Positions 10,541 through 20,053 of a stretch of 20,581 bases of DNA are shown one piece after another; positions within the stretch are counted from its first letter, which is position 1, and each line of letters opens with the position of its first letter. This DNA comes from a virus. Position numbers and translations under genes: made by a program. The notes under the pieces were generated by a model. That model had not been told where the DNA came from and did not search any database. It saw nothing but the letters and a program-made list of their open reading frames with translations. The DNA lies in the IMG/VR virus record IMGVR_UViG_3300033146_002671, positions 1 to 20,581 of that record; one strand, given 5' to 3'.

Positions 10541-10708
10541 ATGCATGATGAAGATCTAAAAGAATATATCTTATGTAAAAATATTTATCACTGTACACCA
10601 AAAGAATTAGATGAACAGGAAGCAATAAAATTAGATTTGCATTACAGTATTTATTCAATGGAAATAGAAGCGAAAAATAAATTAAATAAGAAAAATGGCA
10701 GAAAATAA
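10541..10708 (+). CDS. Tail assembly chaperone, downstream frame (lambda gpT-like), -1 relative to upstream frame
   Basis: From ATG 10541 this frame encodes 55 aa; upstream it is open back to 10469, so it can also be the C-terminal extension of the preceding chaperone by a -1 shift at the A9 tract. The protein is helical and acidic (DEDLKEYILCKNIYHCTPKE, then DEQEAIKLDLHYSIYSMEIE) and lacks a domain I can name from sequence. Its reading frame, size and location between the gpG-like gene and the tape measure fit the T-domain partner that recruits the tube protein. It overlaps the tape measure start by 14 nt. Whether it is made as a free protein, as a fusion or as both cannot be decided here. 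Confidence 0.7.
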   Translation: MHDEDLKEYILCKNIYHCTPKELDEQEAIKLDLHYSIYSMEIEAKNKLNKKNGRK

Positions 10709-12200
10709 GAATCTAAATCTAATACTATCTTTAAAAGATAATGCGACCAGCAAATTAAAAAAATTCAGTGCTGTTGGAATCGCAGCAGTTGGAGCTTTGG
10801 GAATAGCTTCTGTTAAAATGGCAGGAGATTTTGAGAAATCAATGGGAAATGTTGCAACTCTAGTTGATACCAGTGCAGAAAGCATGGCAGAAATGAGCCA
10901 GCAAGTTAAAGATATTGCTTCAAGATCACCTGTTCAATTAGGGGATTTATCAGCAGCTTTATATGATGTAAGATCTGCAGGAGTTTCTTCAGCAGATGCA
11001 ATGATGGTTTTAGAGCAATCGGCGAGATTAGGAGTAGCAGGATTAGGAACAACTGGGGAAGCTGTAAATCTAGCAACTTCAGCAATTAATTCTTTTGGAC
11101 TTGAAGGAATAGAAGCAAAAAATGCTTTTGATATTTTACAATTAACAGTTAAATCTGGAAAAACAAATATTGCAGAATTAGCTCAATCATTCGGAAATGT
11201 TGCAGGAGTCGCAAGTGCTGCTGGAATAGGATTTGATGAATTACAAGCTGCAACTGCTGCACTAACAACAACAGGGCAAAAAGCCAGCGTTGCACAGACT
11301 CAATTAAGGGCTTCAATTCTAGCAATTCAAGCACCAACAGATGCAATGGCAGATGCAATTAATACTGCTGGATATGAAAGTGGATCAGCAATGTTAAAAG
11401 AATTAGGTTTGGTCGATTCAATGAAATTATTGGCAGAAGTAGCAAATAATGATACTTCAGAAATGAAAAAAATGTATGGATCAGTTGAAGCATTAGGAGC
11501 TTCAATCTCATTAACAGGAGAACAAAATACAGCTTTTACTGATACCTTGAACCAAATGACAAATGCAGAAGGTGTTTTAGATGAAGCTTTTAATAAACAG
11601 AATGAAACTTTTGCAGCTCAATATCAGATTCTAAAGAATAATTTGGGCAATGTAATGATTGAATTAGGGACATCTATTTTGCCAGTTCTTATGGATGCAA
11701 TGAAAAGTCTAACAACATTTGTTAGTGAAAATAAAGAGTCTATAAAATCTCTTGCAACATTTTTAGGAACAGTATTTAAGGGAGCAATTGCAATAGCTGG
11801 ACATGCTATAAATGGGTTTAGTATAACATTCGAAAAATTAACTGATTGGGTTGCTAGAATAATTGGTGCATTTAATAGGTTAAAAAGAACATTCAGTAAT
11901 TTCTCTATTCCAAGAAGTGTAAGCAGGGCAGTCAGTGCTTTAGGATTTGCAGATGGAGGAATTGTGCCACAATATTTTGCAGGTGGAGGGATGCCAAAAG
12001 GTTCTGATACAGTGCCAGCAATGCTAACGCCTGGCGAAGTAGTTTTAAATGCAGCACAGCAAAAAAATGTAGCTGGGCAATTAAACGGAAATAGTATTAC
12101 AATTTCTGGTAACAATTTTCAAGGGACACCAAGAGAAATGGCAGAACAAATGTTTGAAATATTACAAGACAAATTACAAGCTAATTTAAGAATGGCATGA
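10695..12200 (+). CDS. Tape measure protein
   Basis: A 501-aa tape measure that sets tail length and is ejected ahead of DNA. Residues 1-45 contain an amphipathic/hydrophobic helix (SAVGIAAVGALGIASVKMAG) followed by DFEKSMGNVATLVDTS, a typical TP901-like core opening. Residues 60-330 are Ala/Ser/Gly-rich helices with the family pattern FGNVAGVASAAGIGFDELQA (about 166-185). Near the C-terminus comes the common motif FADGGIVPQYFAGGG with SDTVPAMLTPGEVVLN (about 418-452). At about 1.5 angstrom per residue the length predicts a tail of roughly 75 nm, short for a siphovirus. It starts within the chaperone frame and its TGA overlaps the hub ATG (ATGA, 12197-12200). Confidence 0.93.
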   Translation: MAENKNLNLILSLKDNATSKLKKFSAVGIAAVGALGIASVKMAGDFEKSMGNVATLVDTSAESMAEMSQQVKDIASRSPVQLGDLSAALYDVRSAGVSSADAMMVLEQSARLGVAGLGTTGEAVNLATSAINSFGLEGIEAKNAFDILQLTVKSGKTNIAELAQSFGNVAGVASAAGIGFDELQAATAALTTTGQKASVAQTQLRASILAIQAPTDAMADAINTAGYESGSAMLKELGLVDSMKLLAEVANNDTSEMKKMYGSVEALGASISLTGEQNTAFTDTLNQMTNAEGVLDEAFNKQNETFAAQYQILKNNLGNVMIELGTSILPVLMDAMKSLTTFVSENKESIKSLATFLGTVFKGAIAIAGHAINGFSITFEKLTDWVARIIGAFNRLKRTFSNFSIPRSVSRAVSALGFADGGIVPQYFAGGGMPKGSDTVPAMLTPGEVVLNAAQQKNVAGQLNGNSITISGNNFQGTPREMAEQMFEILQDKLQANLRMA

Positions 12201-14074
12201 GTTTCATATTAAAAATAAATAATATAGATCGGACTATTTATGTTGATAAAAGTTCGTTTGCTTTAACACAAGTTGCAAATGATGAAGTTGATGAATTACG
12301 TTTTACTTTAATTCTATCTAGTAGTGATATGGCAACAATCAAACCAGATATTTCAAGCAAAGTAGAATTTTTTGATGGATCTGATAAGTTATTTGGTGGA
12401 TATATTAGAAAAATAAATGAGGGAAATATTAATTATAAATTATTCGGAATTGAATGTACTTGTTTTGATTATTCTTTTGATTTAGGCTCAAAGGTTGTTG
12501 TGGATAATTATCAAGATAAAAGCCTATTATATGTATTGAATACATTGATTAATAATTATGCGAATACAGAGCAGAAAATAATTGATTCAATGGAATCTGG
12601 TTGGTCAGCAGGAAGTGCAGATACAACTAATTTTGTTGAAGGTGAACAGAGCTTAAAAATATCAAATACTACAGCGAATAAATCAATAGCATTAAATCTT
12701 GAAACTTTCTCAAATAATGTAGTAAGTGATTCAGATGATTATATTGATTTTTGGTATTATGTAGAAGATTCAAGCAATTTAACTTCTGTATCTTTGAAAT
12801 TAGGAGATTCAGCATTTACAAATTATTATCTTGAAACAATTTCTAGTGGATTCAGTGATGGATGGAATTATTCACATATTCAGAAATCAGATTTTACACT
12901 TACAGGAACATTAGACTGGGACAGTATCGCAAAAGTAGAAGTAGGATCTGTTGGAACTTCAGATGTAAGTTTTGATGATATTAGAATGATCAGTGAAGAT
13001 TCTTTTTATAAATCTGGGATAGAAAAAGATGGGGTCAATGTAGATTTTATTTCATGGAATTATGAACCTTTAAATCAAGTAATTAAACAGCTTGCAGATC
13101 TAGTTGGTTATTATTGGTATATAGATTCTGATAAAAATGTAAAGTTTTTCAGTGCAGGTTTTGAATTAACTACTTTTGATATAGAAGATGATAATGGGAA
13201 TATGCTACAGAATAGTTTGAAAATTATGAATGATGGAACACAGATAAAAAATGCTATATATGTCAGAGGAGGAGAATATCTTGCAACAAATTTAGCAGAA
13301 GAAAAACATCTTGGCGATGGAGAAATGAGAAATTGGAAATTAAATAATAATGGAAAAACATTAAAAGTTTATGTCGATTCTGGTTCTGGTTATGTAGAAA
13401 AAACAGTTGGAATTGAAAATCTTAATGAAGATGATGGTTCTTATGATTGGTTCTGGAATAATTCAGAGAAATATATAAAACAAGCAGATTTTGGAAGTCC
13501 AGCAACTTTATCTAATACAGATAAATTGAAGATTACGTATTATCCATATTTGCCTGTTTTAACGTACATTGAAGACGGTGGGTCTATCACAACTCATGGA
13601 AAGCAAGAAATCGCTATAATCGACAATACAATCAAATCTAAAGAAGGTGCAAGACAAAGAGCATTGGCAGAATTAGATGCATTTAAGAATAGTTTGGCAA
13701 ATAATAAAGTCCAAACATATACAGCAGGAGCGAGAGCAGGGCAACAAATACAGATCAATTCAGTTATAAGAAATTTGAATGAGTATTTTATAATTTGGCG
13801 ATTAAAGGTTATAATTAAAAATGATGATTCATTGCAATATTCACTTGATCTAATTGATAAGAAAAAATTGACACTTACAAATACATTGATTCAATTATTA
13901 TTAGCAAAATATAAATCTATCAAGATTGCAGATGATGAAATTTTAGATAAATTATCGGTTCATAATGAAAATGTTGTAATTCAAGAAAATCATATTATAA
14001 CAGTGGAAGGATTTACAAAAAATTATGGAGCAGATGCAAATGCAGGAAAATATAACCAGTGCCAATATGCGTAA
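12197..14074 (+). CDS. Tail hub/baseplate protein with inserted beta-sandwich domain
   Basis: A 625-aa tail-tip protein following the tape measure. Residues 1-125 resemble a gp27-like hub domain (SKVEFFDGSDKLFGGYIRKI near 54-72, then FGIECTCFDYSFDL and LLYVLNTLINNY). The hub pattern resumes after about residue 270 with WNYEPLNQVIKQLADLVGYY and KNVKFFSAGF, and continues to ARQRALAELDAF and the YTAGARAGQQIQIN segment. Between them, residues about 127-266 form a separate module, DSMESGWSAGSADTTNFVEG through DSIAKVEVGSV, reading like a carbohydrate-binding jelly roll. No distal-tail (Dit) gene lies between it and the tape measure. It overlaps the tape measure by 4 nt and the next gene by 8 nt. 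Hub identity is fairly firm; the sugar-binding idea is inference. Confidence 0.75.
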   Translation: MSFILKINNIDRTIYVDKSSFALTQVANDEVDELRFTLILSSSDMATIKPDISSKVEFFDGSDKLFGGYIRKINEGNINYKLFGIECTCFDYSFDLGSKVVVDNYQDKSLLYVLNTLINNYANTEQKIIDSMESGWSAGSADTTNFVEGEQSLKISNTTANKSIALNLETFSNNVVSDSDDYIDFWYYVEDSSNLTSVSLKLGDSAFTNYYLETISSGFSDGWNYSHIQKSDFTLTGTLDWDSIAKVEVGSVGTSDVSFDDIRMISEDSFYKSGIEKDGVNVDFISWNYEPLNQVIKQLADLVGYYWYIDSDKNVKFFSAGFELTTFDIEDDNGNMLQNSLKIMNDGTQIKNAIYVRGGEYLATNLAEEKHLGDGEMRNWKLNNNGKTLKVYVDSGSGYVEKTVGIENLNEDDGSYDWFWNNSEKYIKQADFGSPATLSNTDKLKITYYPYLPVLTYIEDGGSITTHGKQEIAIIDNTIKSKEGARQRALAELDAFKNSLANNKVQTYTAGARAGQQIQINSVIRNLNEYFIIWRLKVIIKNDDSLQYSLDLIDKKKLTLTNTLIQLLLAKYKSIKIADDEILDKLSVHNENVVIQENHIITVEGFTKNYGADANAGKYNQCQYA

Positions 14075-14621
14075 TGAAAAATCAAAAATAATAGGATTAC
14101 ATACTATAAGGAAATATGCACTTAATACAAAAGAAGCATTGCAGATTGATAAAATAATCAATAATTTATTGCAATGTGGTTATCTTTTGACTGGGAGAAC
14201 TATATCTTATTGGCTTGCAAAATTAGAATTAAAAAGGGAAAAAGTTTATAAAAATATTATAGTAACTGCAGGAAGAAATGTTTTGGCAGGAGTTTTAGCA
14301 AATGATTATGTTGCAGATGCATATATTAATTATGGAGCTTTAGGAGATTCTGGGACTACTCCAACAATAGGAAATACAACTTTAAATAATGAAACTACTA
14401 GAAAATTAATATCTAGTGCAGAATCTAATTTGAATGTTGCAGAAATAACTCAATATTGGGCAAGTGGTGAAGCGAACGATCATCATTATGAAGCTGGAGA
14501 GTTTATCGCAGCAACAGCAATAGCAAATTCTGGCGTTCTATTTAGTCATTGGTTAATGGATGAAGAGAAAACATCAGCAGAATCTATGACGATTGAAAGT
14601 CAATATACATTCACTCAATAA
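14067..14621 (+). CDS. Tail-tip/baseplate-associated structural protein
   Basis: A 184-aa protein read from ATG 14067, which overlaps the hub stop by 8 nt; an earlier in-frame ATG at 14025 would overlap by 50 nt and is less likely. The first ~60 residues are helical and basic (EALQIDKIINNLLQCGYLL, KLELKREK). The rest is a beta-rich module: IIVTAGRNVLAGVLANDY, then YINYGALGDSGTTP, NNETTRKLISSAES, and late SGVLFSHWLM, ending with SMTIESQYTFTQ. I recognise this Gly-Ala-Leu-Gly plus Arg-Lys-Leu layout from uncharacterised phage tail-region proteins, so a virion role in the tail tip is likely. The exact role is unknown. Confidence 0.65.
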   Translation: MRNEKSKIIGLHTIRKYALNTKEALQIDKIINNLLQCGYLLTGRTISYWLAKLELKREKVYKNIIVTAGRNVLAGVLANDYVADAYINYGALGDSGTTPTIGNTTLNNETTRKLISSAESNLNVAEITQYWASGEANDHHYEAGEFIAATAIANSGVLFSHWLMDEEKTSAESMTIESQYTFTQ

Positions 14622-15053: not shown

Positions 15054-16652
15054 ATGGTAGGAGAAAGCTCGGATGTAGCACAAAGCGACATTGTAAATCC
15101 AGATGATCATAATAATTTAAGATCAGATATTTTCCAGTCTGTAAAAGCTAAAACAGCAGATTATTTAGTTGATATAAATACAGATTATAATGATATTATT
15201 ACAAATAAAGGAGCTACAGAAGATATAGAAATCACTTTGCCAGATTGTGAAGTTGGGGCAGTTCATAAATTTGAAGTAGTAGAAGCTTTTGCTTTAAAAA
15301 TTACTGCTGCTGCTGGGAATAATTTTATATGCAATGAAGATTTAACAGCTTTTGGAGATTCAATATCAAGTAATAAAATCGGTACAAGTGTAGAACTTTA
15401 TGGATTAGATTCAACTACTTGGGGAGTTTTCCCTATTGGTTTTTGGTATTCTCCATATTTTGGGGATGGATCAGATGGAGATTTAACAGTTACAGGAACA
15501 ACTACTGTAACAATGAAACAAATATATGAGGATGAAAATGTAACAGGGATTACAACTAAAAATGGAGTAGGAAAAGGATTAAACAAAGGATCTGGGACTT
15601 ATATGGATGGATCAGATGACGAAATGCCAAATTTCCAAAATGTAACAATAAATTCTGGTCAGAAAATAATCGGTGATGATTCTAATAGATACACTGATAA
15701 TGGACATACTTTTTTCAGATGTAGTGGAATTTTAGGAGGTTCTGGATCTATTGATGAATCTGGTTTTGGAGGAAAAGGATCAATCTCAAGTTATGGTAGG
15801 GGATATGGAGGATATGGGACACAAACAACAGTAAGAGGAGGAAATGGCGGAGTTCATTCATCATCTTATTCTGGAAGTGCAGCAACATCAAATGGAAGTG
15901 GTGGTGGAGGTGGTGGAGCTAGCAGATATGGAATTTCTGGTGGAGGAGGAGCAGGACAATCTGGTGCTTTAGGAGGAGCAGGAGGTGGTGGTGGTGGTGG
16001 TTATAACACCAACACAAATGATGATGGAAGAGGAGGAGGTGGTGGTGGAGCTGGTTATGGTTCTGCTGGTTCTGGGGGTTCTGGAGGTTATTCTGGAAAC
16101 AGTGGATCGACTTCTGGAGGAAATGGTGGAGCTGGTTTACATACTTATAGTGATGATTCTGAAGGCGGTGGAGGTGGTGGTGGTGGAACTTATGGATCTG
16201 CTAACTTCGGAAATGATAATATAGATTTAGTTGATGAATTTTATATAGGATCTGGTGGAGGAGATGGAAATATGGGGACTGGAGATGATGGTATCGGATA
16301 TGGAGGACTTGGAGGAAATGGTGGAGGAAAAATCAGAGTTGCAGCAAGAGAAATAGAAGATACAATTTCAATAAAAGCAAATGGAAATGTAGGAGGAAGT
16401 GGAACACAAGGAGGAGGTACTTCGGATGATGGACATGGAGGAAATGGTGGATCTGGATCTGGTGGTTCTATCTGGATAATAACTAAAAATGGATCTTTCG
16501 GTTCTGGATTAATAACAGCAAATGGAGGGGCTGCGAATAATGCAGGAACATATAATTCTGGGGGAGGATATGGTGGAGCTGGAAGAATTAGAATAGATGG
16601 AAATTATACAGGGACAACAACACCACCACCAGCTTATGTAGGAGGACTTTAA
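15054..16652 (+). CDS. Glycine-rich tail fibre tip/adhesin
   Basis: A 532-aa protein with three parts. Residues 1-131 are paralogous to the preceding 137-aa protein and probably anchor it to the tail. Residues 135-225 form a polar beta-rich connector (FGDGSDGDLTVTGTTTVTMK). Residues 226-515 are dominated by glycine, with runs of five to eight Gly near 283-288, 310-316, 327-332 and 371-378 separated by Ser/Ala/Tyr/Asn/Asp loops. The C-terminal part returns to mixed strands (GGSIWIITKNG, GGAGRIRIDGNYTG) and ends in TTTPPPAYVGGL. Polyglycine segments with variable loops are known from phage adhesins such as S16 gp38, where they pack as polyglycine-II helices and the loops bind the receptor. Homology to that protein is not claimed; the structural analogy is inference. 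Confidence 0.75.
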   Translation: MVGESSDVAQSDIVNPDDHNNLRSDIFQSVKAKTADYLVDINTDYNDIITNKGATEDIEITLPDCEVGAVHKFEVVEAFALKITAAAGNNFICNEDLTAFGDSISSNKIGTSVELYGLDSTTWGVFPIGFWYSPYFGDGSDGDLTVTGTTTVTMKQIYEDENVTGITTKNGVGKGLNKGSGTYMDGSDDEMPNFQNVTINSGQKIIGDDSNRYTDNGHTFFRCSGILGGSGSIDESGFGGKGSISSYGRGYGGYGTQTTVRGGNGGVHSSSYSGSAATSNGSGGGGGGASRYGISGGGGAGQSGALGGAGGGGGGGYNTNTNDDGRGGGGGGAGYGSAGSGGSGGYSGNSGSTSGGNGGAGLHTYSDDSEGGGGGGGGTYGSANFGNDNIDLVDEFYIGSGGGDGNMGTGDDGIGYGGLGGNGGGKIRVAAREIEDTISIKANGNVGGSGTQGGGTSDDGHGGNGGSGSGGSIWIITKNGSFGSGLITANGGAANNAGTYNSGGGYGGAGRIRIDGNYTGTTTPPPAYVGGL

Positions 16653-16671: not shown

Positions 16672-17778
16672 ATGTCAACAATAACAACGATTGCAGGATC
16701 TGATAAAATAAAAGATAGCAGAGCCGTCATCAACACAAATTTTGAAAATCTTAATACTGATAAAGTAGAAAAAGATAATGTTTTAGAAAAGGATAATACA
16801 ACTGTATTTGTGCCAACAGCAGATTATCATCCAGCTACTAAAAAATATGTTGATGATACTATTCCATCAATACCAGTTACGTCAGTTGCAGGAAAAACAG
16901 GGGCAGTTCTTTTGGTAAAAGCAGATGTTGGACTTGGGAATGTTGATAATACTTCTGATGTGAATAAGCCAATAAGCACAGCGACTCAAGCAGCTTTAGA
17001 CGGAAAACAAGCAAGTATGGGATCAGATGATAATTATGTAACAGATGCAGAAAAGGTTATTATCGGAAACACTTCTGGATCAAATACAGGAGATCAAGAT
17101 TTAAGTGCTTTGGCTTTAAAATCAAATGTTTTAGAGAAGAATAATACAACATCATTTACACCAGATGCAGATTATGAGCCAGCGACCAAAAAATATGTTG
17201 ATGATAATATTCCAAATGTGCCAGTATCTTCAGTTGCAGGAAAAACTGGGGTAGTTACTCTTGTTAAAGCAGATGTCGGATTAGGAAATGTTGATAATAC
17301 CACAGATGCAGGAAAGCCAATAAGTTCAGCAACTCAATCAGCTTTAGATGGAAAACAGGCTTCAATGGGAAGTGATGATAATTATGTAACAGATGCAGAA
17401 AAAATAGTAATAGGAAACACTTCTGGAACTAATACAGGTGATCAAGAAATACCAGTAAAAGCTACAGGGACAGAATTAGATACAGGAACAGATGATACTA
17501 AATTTGCTACAGCAAAGGCTTTAGTAGATAGTAAATATATGAAAAATGATGAATCGGTTACTCTTACAAATAAAGTTATAGATGGAGATAATAATACAAT
17601 TCAAAATGTGCCAGCAGCAGCAATAAAAGCTGGATCATTAGTTGCTGAAATGGTTGCTTCAGATCATGGAGCAGCAGGAACAGATCAATTAGTTAATGTT
17701 TGTTATGGTACAAGTGCAACACCACCAACGGCTAATACAACGACTATTGGAACTCTTTATATACAATATACAGCTTAA
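16672..17778 (+). CDS. Tail fibre protein with two 116-residue repeats
   Basis: A 368-aa fibre-type protein. After a 36-residue N-terminus with VINTNFENLNTDKVE, two tandem units follow: VLEK at 37 and 153, ATKKYVDD at 55 and 171, SVAGKTG at 71 and 187, KADVGLGNVDNT at 83 and 199, and DAEK at 125 and 241, all with the same 116-residue spacing. The SVAGKTGxVxLxKADVGLGNVDNT element is widespread in trimeric phage tail fibres. Residues 262-300 add another common fibre segment (KATGTELDTGTDDTKFATAK), and the C-terminus (PPTANTTTIGTLYIQYTA) probably closes the trimer tip. Its neighbours are other adhesion genes. No chaperone domain or catalytic motif is seen. Confidence 0.85.
   Translation: MSTITTIAGSDKIKDSRAVINTNFENLNTDKVEKDNVLEKDNTTVFVPTADYHPATKKYVDDTIPSIPVTSVAGKTGAVLLVKADVGLGNVDNTSDVNKPISTATQAALDGKQASMGSDDNYVTDAEKVIIGNTSGSNTGDQDLSALALKSNVLEKNNTTSFTPDADYEPATKKYVDDNIPNVPVSSVAGKTGVVTLVKADVGLGNVDNTTDAGKPISSATQSALDGKQASMGSDDNYVTDAEKIVIGNTSGTNTGDQEIPVKATGTELDTGTDDTKFATAKALVDSKYMKNDESVTLTNKVIDGDNNTIQNVPAAAIKAGSLVAEMVASDHGAAGTDQLVNVCYGTSATPPTANTTTIGTLYIQYTA
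16780..17451 (+). repeat. Tandem 116-codon repeat, two copies, in the tail fibre gene
   Basis: Copy 1 spans 16780-17127 and copy 2 17128-17451 (the second slightly shorter at its end). Protein identity is high, while many codons differ between copies, so the duplication is not very recent. Confidence 0.85.
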
Positions 17779-17788
17779 TCAATAAATT

Positions 17789-20053
17789 ATGGCAGATAAT
17801 TATGATATATCAGAAATTGATTCAATATCTAGGGGATCGAAAAAAGAATGGAATTCTTTGGTTAGAATTGATGATACGCATTTTATAGAAGCATTTTGTG
17901 ATGATGATGATAAAGGTCATATTCATGTATTTAGTTGCGATGCAAATGGTGATAATATTACAATATTAGATTCATTAGAGCATGATGCATCAAGAGCAAC
18001 ATATAATTCTTTGGTAAAAATTGATGATACGCATTTTATCTTGGCGTATTGTGGGGTAGATTATGATGGCTATATCAAAACATTTTCAATTGATGGAAGT
18101 TATAATATTACAGAGATACATGAATTGGAACATAACACAACTTATGGGGCTAGTAATTCTTTAGTAAAAATTGATGATACACATTTCATTCTTGCTTATA
18201 GTGGAACTAATTATAATGCAAATATAAAAACATTTTCAATTGATGGAAGCTATAATATTACAGCAATACATGATTTGGAACATGACACAGGCAATGGATA
18301 CTCTCAATCACTGATTAAAATTTCTGATACTCTTTATGCACTCGGCTATTCGACTGTTGGTTATGCTGGAATGGTCAAAACATTTTCAATTGATGGAAGC
18401 TATAATATTTCTCAAGTTGGTTCACTAGAACATGAAGCAGATTTTGCTAATATAAATTCAATAGTTAAAATCGATGATACCCATATATTATTTGCTTGGT
18501 GCGAAGGTGCTGGTAGGGGCTGGCTGAAAACATTTAGTTTTGATACGGATGGAGCTAATATCGCTCAAATTGACTCACTAGACAATATAGCACGTTATAT
18601 AAGGTGGAATTCATTAGTAAAATTGAATAGTACACATTTTGTTTTGGCAATGGCCAGAGGTACTTCAGATCCAGAAATTAAGACAATTACAATTGATACT
18701 AATTATAATATTTCAATATTAAAATCAGTATCAATTAGTAGCATTGATACTGATTATTGTTCTTTAGTAATAGCAACAGCAGAAATGCTTGTACTTGGTT
18801 TTGGTGGCACTTATTCGGATGGATATATTTATACATTTGGTGTTGAAAGATTTTTTAATATAGAAGAAGTCGATTCATTGGAGCATGATACATCCTATGG
18901 TTATTATAATTCTGTAATTAAAATCGATGATACTCATTTTATACTTGCATATCAAGGAACAGATTATGGTGGATTTATTAAAACATTTAGTTGTGATGCA
19001 GATGGAACTAATATTGCTCAAATTGATTCACTAGAACATGATACTGGGTCTAGTAGCTATAATTCTTTTATTACATTAGATTCTACACATTTTATGTTGG
19101 CATATCTCAATTCTGATACAGAAGGTCAAATTAAAACTTTTAGTATTGACGGAAGTTATAATATAACTGAAATAGATTCATTAGTACATGATATTTATTA
19201 TGGAGGATATAATTCATTAGTAAAAATAGACTCTACACACGCAATTCTTTCTTATATGGGCAGATACAATGATAGTTGGATGGCGACATTTTCAGTTGAT
19301 GCAAGCTATAACATTACTAAAATATATTCATATAGGCACGATTTAGTTAGTGGACTTTACCATTCATTGGTAAAAATTGATGATACACATTTTATTCTTG
19401 CTTATACTTCAAATGGTTATGATGGCGTAATTAAAACATTTTCAATTGATGGAAGCTATATTCCATCTGTAATTAATACATTAACACATGATAGTGATTA
19501 TGCTCGATATAATTCTTTTATTATATTAGATTCTACACATTTTATGTTGGCATACTCTGATTCTAGTTATGATGGCTATATCAAAACATTTTCAATTGAC
19601 AGTAGTTATGACAACATCACAGAAATAGATTCATTAGAACATGATATCGATTACAATAAAGATAATTCATTAGTAAAAATAGACTCTACACACGCAATGT
19701 TGGCTTATGCTGGAGAAGATAATGGGGGCTATGTTAAAACATTTAGTTGTGATGCAGATGGAACTAATATTACTCAAATTGATTCACTAGTACACGATTC
19801 TACTATTGGGCTACAAAATTCTTTAGTTATGATGGGTGCAGAACTTTTATTGCTAGCCTATGCTGGTTCTGGTTATGATGGTTATGTAAAAACATTTAAG
19901 TTGACTGGAGAGCAAGAAAGCCAAATGTTAAAAATCAATATCGGAGATTCATGGAAAGAGGTTACAAGTGTAAAAATCAATATCGGAGATTCATGGAAAG
20001 AGGTTACAAGTGTAAAAATCAATATCGGAGATTCATGGAAAACAAGCTCATGA
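17789..20053 (+). CDS. Fourteen-repeat, probable double seven-bladed beta-propeller tail protein
   Basis: A 754-aa protein built from 14 consecutive repeats of 50-51 residues (about residues 3-709). The consensus reads NITEIDSLEHD, a variable loop, NSLVKIDDTHFILAY, a variable loop, then YIKTFSIDGSY. Each unit has four potential strands, the design of a propeller blade. Units 7 and 14 lack the DDTHF motif and carry TAEMLVL and GAELLLL instead; units 1 and 8, and 5 and 12, share a one-residue-longer ending. This fits two propellers of seven blades. Residues 715-754 hold a different repeat, KINIGDSWKEVTSV, in three copies (the last partial), a motif seen at the ends of phage tail proteins. No signal peptide or catalytic motif is visible. 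Within the tail-tip block the likely role is receptor binding; the propeller fold is inferred from repeat number and length. Confidence 0.75.
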   Translation: MADNYDISEIDSISRGSKKEWNSLVRIDDTHFIEAFCDDDDKGHIHVFSCDANGDNITILDSLEHDASRATYNSLVKIDDTHFILAYCGVDYDGYIKTFSIDGSYNITEIHELEHNTTYGASNSLVKIDDTHFILAYSGTNYNANIKTFSIDGSYNITAIHDLEHDTGNGYSQSLIKISDTLYALGYSTVGYAGMVKTFSIDGSYNISQVGSLEHEADFANINSIVKIDDTHILFAWCEGAGRGWLKTFSFDTDGANIAQIDSLDNIARYIRWNSLVKLNSTHFVLAMARGTSDPEIKTITIDTNYNISILKSVSISSIDTDYCSLVIATAEMLVLGFGGTYSDGYIYTFGVERFFNIEEVDSLEHDTSYGYYNSVIKIDDTHFILAYQGTDYGGFIKTFSCDADGTNIAQIDSLEHDTGSSSYNSFITLDSTHFMLAYLNSDTEGQIKTFSIDGSYNITEIDSLVHDIYYGGYNSLVKIDSTHAILSYMGRYNDSWMATFSVDASYNITKIYSYRHDLVSGLYHSLVKIDDTHFILAYTSNGYDGVIKTFSIDGSYIPSVINTLTHDSDYARYNSFIILDSTHFMLAYSDSSYDGYIKTFSIDSSYDNITEIDSLEHDIDYNKDNSLVKIDSTHAMLAYAGEDNGGYVKTFSCDADGTNITQIDSLVHDSTIGLQNSLVMMGAELLLLAYAGSGYDGYVKTFKLTGEQESQMLKINIGDSWKEVTSVKINIGDSWKEVTSVKINIGDSWKTSS
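17795..19915 (+). repeat. 14 tandem ~150-bp repeats (blade-like units)
   Basis: Repeat units begin near 17795, 17954 and then about every 150-153 bp to 19766, ending at 19915. Variable loops alternate with conserved strands. Some units share long nearly identical DNA: 18978-19034 with 19734-19790 (one mismatch in 57), 19061-19104 with 19511-19554 (one in 44) and 19211-19245 with 19664-19698 (identical). Confidence 0.9.
19929..20041 (+). repeat. 42-bp perfect direct repeats at the 3' end of the propeller gene
   Basis: Copies at 19929-19970 and 19971-20012 are identical by eye, followed by a 29-bp partial copy at 20013-20041. Each encodes KINIGDSWKEVTSV. Perfect identity, including wobble positions, points to recent duplication. 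Confidence 0.95.

Follow-up and report, generated by a model that had tools for sequence, protein, structure and literature searches.

A predicted tail-associated tandem double beta-propeller of an uncultivated phage, probably formed by en bloc duplication of a seven-bladed propeller

Beta-propellers are described as toroidal folds with four to twelve blades (PMC6805158). Among phage propellers, a receptor role has been proposed for Gp45 of Staphylococcus phage phi11 and for gp131C of phiKZ (PMC4901313). Gp45 has one five-bladed propeller per chain, closed by an N-terminal strand and proposed to be a sugar-binding platform, within a trimer that has a helical stem and a tower. The C-terminal domain of gp131C (PDB code 4GBF, cited in PMC4901313) is a single seven-bladed propeller at the edge of the phage baseplate, and receptor binding has been speculated for it. 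Propellers can also have a structural role in phage tails, as in the crassvirus muzzle protein and the T7 nozzle (PMC10172136). Eukaryotic tandem WD40 proteins, such as Elp2, the tandem-WD40 subunits of the SSU processome and, with three rings, DDB1, carry seven-bladed WD40-type rings one after another in a single chain. Highly repetitive propellers, amplified from single blades, have similar blades and ongoing blade exchange (PMC9218822, PMC6805158).

Here we describe a gene in a 20,581-base IMG/VR virus record (IMGVR_UViG_3300033146_002671; this whole stretch is the window), from a bacterial virus seen in environmental DNA alone. The source is an uncultivated tailed phage. We consider that the gene encodes a tail-associated double-propeller protein, made by en bloc duplication, that binds the host through variable faces (probability about 0.7 for this reading as a whole). 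Like Gp45, it is predicted to be a tail propeller closed by an N-terminal strand; unlike Gp45, it would have two seven-bladed propellers per chain and no stem is seen. It shares the seven blades of gp131C but has two propellers instead of one, a likeness drawn from the published description. Neither the fold nor the concept of a propeller adhesin is new; the doubled seven-bladed form of this family was found here alone, as far as searched.

The gene (positions 17789..20053; all features given here are on the + strand) runs from an ATG at 17789 to a stop codon that ends at 20053. It encodes 754 amino acids: propeller 1, propeller 2 and a C-terminal triple tag. The initial annotation had counted 14 repeats of 50–51 amino acids, and this count holds, as residues 5–709 could be cut and aligned as 14 units and a blade HMM counts exactly 14. 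The units of the first half are residues 5–55, 56–105, 106–155, 156–205, 206–256, 257–306 and 307–356, and those of the second are 357–407, 408–457, 458–507, 508–557, 558–608, 609–659 and 660–709. Within each unit the strand order is d-a-b-c, with NITEIDSLEH (d), NSLVKI (a), THFILAY (b) and GYIKTFSI (c). The halves have diverged widely in DNA (in-register units are roughly 49–67% identical), which rules out assembly duplication as the source of the 14 units.

A period of seven had been read from the sequence in the initial annotation, and the division into 7 + 7 proved right, although some of the clues offered for it did not. In an ungapped self-match of the protein, the peak is at a lag of 352, which equals seven units. 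Unit alignment shows that units 7 (ATAEMLVLGFGG, 18707..18856) and 14 (MGAELLLLAYAG, 19766..19915) are closing blades that are degenerate in the same place, as had been claimed, with DDTHF replaced by ATAEML in unit 7 and MGAELL in unit 14; the residual similarity of this pair is among the highest. Mean similarity between units is greatest at a separation of seven, but the excess is modest (permutation p about 0.012 to 0.018) and comes mainly from pairs 7/14 and 4/11. The CDA-type long end said to pair units 1 and 8 is present in both, but a CDA/DADG-type end also occurs in units 5 and 13. Similarly, units 5 and 12 both have 51 residues, as do units 1, 8 and 13, and the extra residue of unit 12 is a different insertion (SSYD). 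Two in-register pairs of long units among the five long ones have a chance of about 0.10, and we therefore rejected both pairings as evidence of the period. A tree of the 14 single units, which had been suggested as a check of pairs 1/8, 5/12 and 7/14, was an unresolved star except for a weak 3/4/11 group, without evidence for any of the three pairs.

With two-blade alignments as the query, relatives were found in viral contigs and three bacterial genomes. Exactly seven blades are present in at least 23 distinct propellers of the family, from environmental virus contigs, a Peptococcaceae prophage and two Patescibacteria genomes (L002, L005, L006, L007, L010, the second gene of L011, L015, L016, L017, L018, L019 (identical to L020), L021, L022, L023, L024, L025, L027, L028, L029, L050 (identical to L051), L072, L132 and L141); in this set, the L002 open reading frame (ORF) meets the contig end 22 residues past blade seven, and L018, L023, L072 and L141 include blades that match weakly. 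No relative with 14 blades was present among the family propellers found. Genes not cut by a contig end also had six (L004), four (L012), two (L055) and one (L142) blades. The propeller genes of L004, L008 and L055 are near-identical and have six, at least six (L008 is cut by the contig end) and two blades, respectively. As L004 and L055 have near-identical blades in common, the low counts may reflect assembly collapse or real contraction. On contig 3300033145_002492 (L011/L043), two propeller genes are adjacent; the first is truncated at the start of the contig and broken by a frame change near 379–398.

In two Patescibacteria genomes (L027 and L029) the propellers are parts of large surface-type proteins, which indicates that the fold is not confined to phages. 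A domain ending in ...IGIFTETxxGEKxEWLPTIDGFxIYEW adjoins the propeller on its N-terminal side in L004, L007, L009, L010, L011, L027 and L055; its carriers include a Candidatus Falkowbacteria genome, and a similar stretch occurs in L141. This domain has no Pfam match in L007, L010 or L027.

Other searches delimit the family. The full-length protein retrieved nothing from viral and genome contigs (seeded by peptides particular to this protein) or from named phages. A composite two-blade query had no match in named phages and plasmids, the L028 propeller had none in named phages, and a PDB sequence search with the propeller protein had none. Scanning contigs retrieved via the portal protein with the blade HMM revealed no propeller. 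No family in Pfam, PHROGs or NCBIfam covers the blade, and many environmental members of the family consequently go unannotated. The Pfam WD40 profile matches neither the window protein nor any of 21 aligned members. The Pfam Lactonase profile (PF10282) gave 19.2 bits for half 1, below its curated cut-off of 21.7, and no single stretch was significant. Many other sub-threshold Pfam and NCBIfam matches of the repeats, DfrA35 and PARG among them, were set aside as probable chance similarity of repetitive sequence.

Structure prediction, proposed as a check that could instead have given a solenoid or a beta-helix, yielded closed propellers. Half 1 was modelled with AlphaFold2 from a 21-row alignment (half 1 plus 20 sequences, comprising relatives and half 2), giving a mean pLDDT of 92.2, a pTM of 0.90 and 28 strands (4 × 7). 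In this model of propeller 1 (residues 4–355, blades 1–7; 17798..18853), the N-terminal strand 4–17 is the outer strand that closes ring 1, and residues 360–366, at the start of the next ring, are disordered. In the full-length model, propeller 2 (residues 357–709, blades 8–14; 18857..19915) has a pLDDT of about 88–98 across residues 360–700 (about 96 overall), and residues 357–367 form a confident strand of ring 2 directly after propeller 1. Half 1 reaches a pLDDT of only about 75 there, because all relatives had been aligned to half 2; residues 1–19 are unformed and the closure of ring 1 is absent. The overall pTM is 0.62, which does not fix how the two propellers are placed relative to each other. 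By prediction, each half is a closed ring of seven antiparallel blades with four strands apiece, and strands from both domain ends close ring 1 in the half-1 model and ring 2 in the full-length model.

VIA-align supports this fold. Half 1 (residues 1–356) has Z scores of 30–33 to seven-bladed propellers, with 33.0 to CylK and about 31 to several WD40 proteins. Half 2 (model range about 350–707) has a Z score of 31.9 to CIAO1 (6tbl_F), and WDR61 and G-beta were also matched. The best pairs (Z 31.9 and 33.0) align more than 300 residues at an r.m.s.d. of 2.5–2.6. The top Foldseek matches of the full-length model are the multi-propeller proteins Elp2, a tandem-WD40 SSU processome subunit and DDB1. 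The likeness to these eukaryotic proteins lies in consecutive rings in one chain; unlike them, the phage protein lacks a WD40 profile match, and sequence identity is 8–13%. Taken with relatives that stop at seven blades and Z scores of about 32 to seven-bladed structures, the models of both halves make two seven-bladed beta-propellers in one chain, as initially proposed, a well supported prediction. The chain would then comprise two complete rings (4–355 and 357–709), each closed by the strand with which it begins and separated by almost no linker, with a triple-repeat tag of 45 residues behind them.

The genes upstream of the propeller encode a terminase, a portal, an HK97-type capsid, a tail tube, a tape measure (10695..12200; Pfam PhageMin_Tail E 4.5e-29, PHROGs tape measure E 6e-60), a tail or baseplate-hub-like protein 3′ of the tape measure (12197..14074; PHROGs tail protein E 2e-11, baseplate hub E 0.002), a glycine-rich protein of the same module (15054..16652; recognized from its sequence, without a family match) and a tail-fibre-like protein (16672..17778). 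The last has two GKTGAV..ADVGLGNVDNT modules, and its PHROGs matches are to minor tail and tail fiber families (best E 3e-35). At L028, the Peptococcaceae prophage locus, the propeller directly follows genes for the tape measure, Dit (Dit_N E 1.4e-25) and two tail proteins, in this order; in L006 and L018, the gene immediately upstream of the propeller matches tail fibre families. The propeller gene therefore lies among tail-tip or fibre genes in the window and in these three relatives, the setting of the Gp45 type, and this gene order bears out the assignment as a tail protein.

No relatives of the tail-hub-like protein were found in viral contigs, and L050, considered as a propeller fused to a homologue of it, was rejected because the match is too weak (E 0.008). 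Around 13950–14130, the ORFs 12197–14074 and 14025–14621 overlap in different frames, and the start of the second ORF, or a frameshift, is ambiguous. The 25 bases 5′ of the start codons of all genes in the window (GC 31.9%) are A/T-rich, without a clear Shine–Dalgarno motif, which may be a hint to the host group.

The d-a and b-c loops of an antiparallel four-stranded meander share one face, opposite the a-b and c-d loops. The mean entropy of loop columns is 2.41 bits on the d-a/b-c (top) face versus 1.37 on the other (bottom) face (p 0.0008), and the top face is the more variable in both halves and in 17/17 relatives. When the closely related L002 and L005 are compared, 45% of residues differ in the d-a loops and 30% in the b-c loops, compared with 10–12% on the bottom face. 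Judged from sequence, this one-sided variability is consistent with a recognition or binding face, and relaxed constraint on the loops could contribute. The contrast between a conserved and a variable face directly predicts where a ligand would bind.

The alternatives concern how the 14 units fold, how they came together and what the protein does. That they form one large ring, or split other than 7 + 7, is highly improbable: half 1 closes alone with high confidence, half 2 closes within the full-length model, the degenerate units fall at 7 and 14, seven is the family norm and described propellers have four to twelve blades (PMC6805158), all of which outweighs the unformed closure of ring 1 in the full-length model and the ability of repetitive propellers to adopt other blade numbers (PMC9218822). 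The origin of the two rings is a closer matter. A 24-row tree built from seven-blade domains places the two halves as sisters (support 96/89; 92/86 in an earlier 19-row tree), and when the blades of half 2 were rotated by one to six positions, the sister relation was lost in 6/6 controls. The signal thus sits in register, as expected under the proposed en bloc duplication; by in-register residual, the two halves rank 5th of 91 propeller pairs. That two separate propeller genes fused in tandem and were made alike later by blade exchange seems unlikely, as exchange at random positions should not prefer the register. The fusion has its own evidence, as substrates exist in the adjacent gene pair on 3300033145_002492 and for some relatives, identity to a half exceeds that between the halves (for example, L004 at 53% and 57% versus 45%). 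DNA patches of 23–38 bp are also shared between the halves, or between units that are not seven apart. The longest identical stretches (38, 37, 33, 33 and 30 bp) join units at separations of 5, 3, 1, 10 and 3, and patches occur at 7 and 8 as well (range 1–10), which points to later blade-to-blade exchange. Together with the star-like tree of single blades, the patches suggest a duplication that is old or blurred by exchange. We conclude that the doubled propeller was probably made by doubling a one-propeller gene: a gene of a normally seven-bladed family would have duplicated en bloc, after which the halves diverged and swapped sequence from blade to blade. Similar blades, exchange between them and a blade number that varies in some relatives (6, 4 and 2) recall the highly repetitive propellers (PMC9218822, PMC6805158), but the doubled form differs in holding the family count of seven and the in-register sister signal, as whole-propeller amplification would. 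If so, single propellers being known in phage adhesins, a doubled one with a traceable one-propeller ancestor offers a clear case of whole-domain duplication as opposed to blade amplification.

As to function, the propeller protein probably grips the host cell by binding a receptor. Structural tail propellers are known (PMC10172136), and the structural neighbours include sialidases and lactonases, so we also considered a structural or adaptor tail part or a virion-borne enzyme such as a glycosidase. We doubt this reading, as the gene is at the fibre end of the module and not in a nozzle position, no enzyme family scores above its cut-off and the loops of one face are diversified, as recognition would predict. 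For receptor binding, we hypothesize that the chain is located at the tail tip or on side fibres and that the variable faces of both propellers (d-a and b-c loops) bind a host surface molecule, probably a glycan. Two multivalent receptor-binding faces per chain, as the initial annotation suggested, are plausible; the chain would then carry two recognition discs and twice the binding faces, presumably with a gain in avidity.

For comparison with the trimeric stem of the Gp45 type, blade 1 has no preceding N-terminal domain, and the chain ends in the triple tag (19925..20050), three copies of about 14 amino acids (KINIGDSWKEVTSV) that were recognized by sequence and recur in other viral ORFs. 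A degenerate pattern of the tag matched 51 viral stretches (L064–L114). It lies within 60 amino acids of the C terminus in 47/51 viral ORFs, often in three copies, and the bodies of these ORFs are very diverse (LamG-like, glycine-rich and other propellers (L072 and L093)). The tag has no meaningful match in Pfam or the PDB and only weak ones in PHROGs; in the full-length AlphaFold2 model it forms three weak hairpins. As a tentative and rather speculative extension, the seven-bladed propellers of tailed phages and Patescibacteria could be an undescribed family of recognition platforms, with one face diversified blade by blade and the platform doubled here, and the triple KINIGDxWK tag could be an exchangeable docking module on unrelated adhesin types (propellers, LamG-like and glycine-rich) of many environmental phages. 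In L083, a KINIGD tag is at the N terminus and is followed by repeats that resemble another propeller type.
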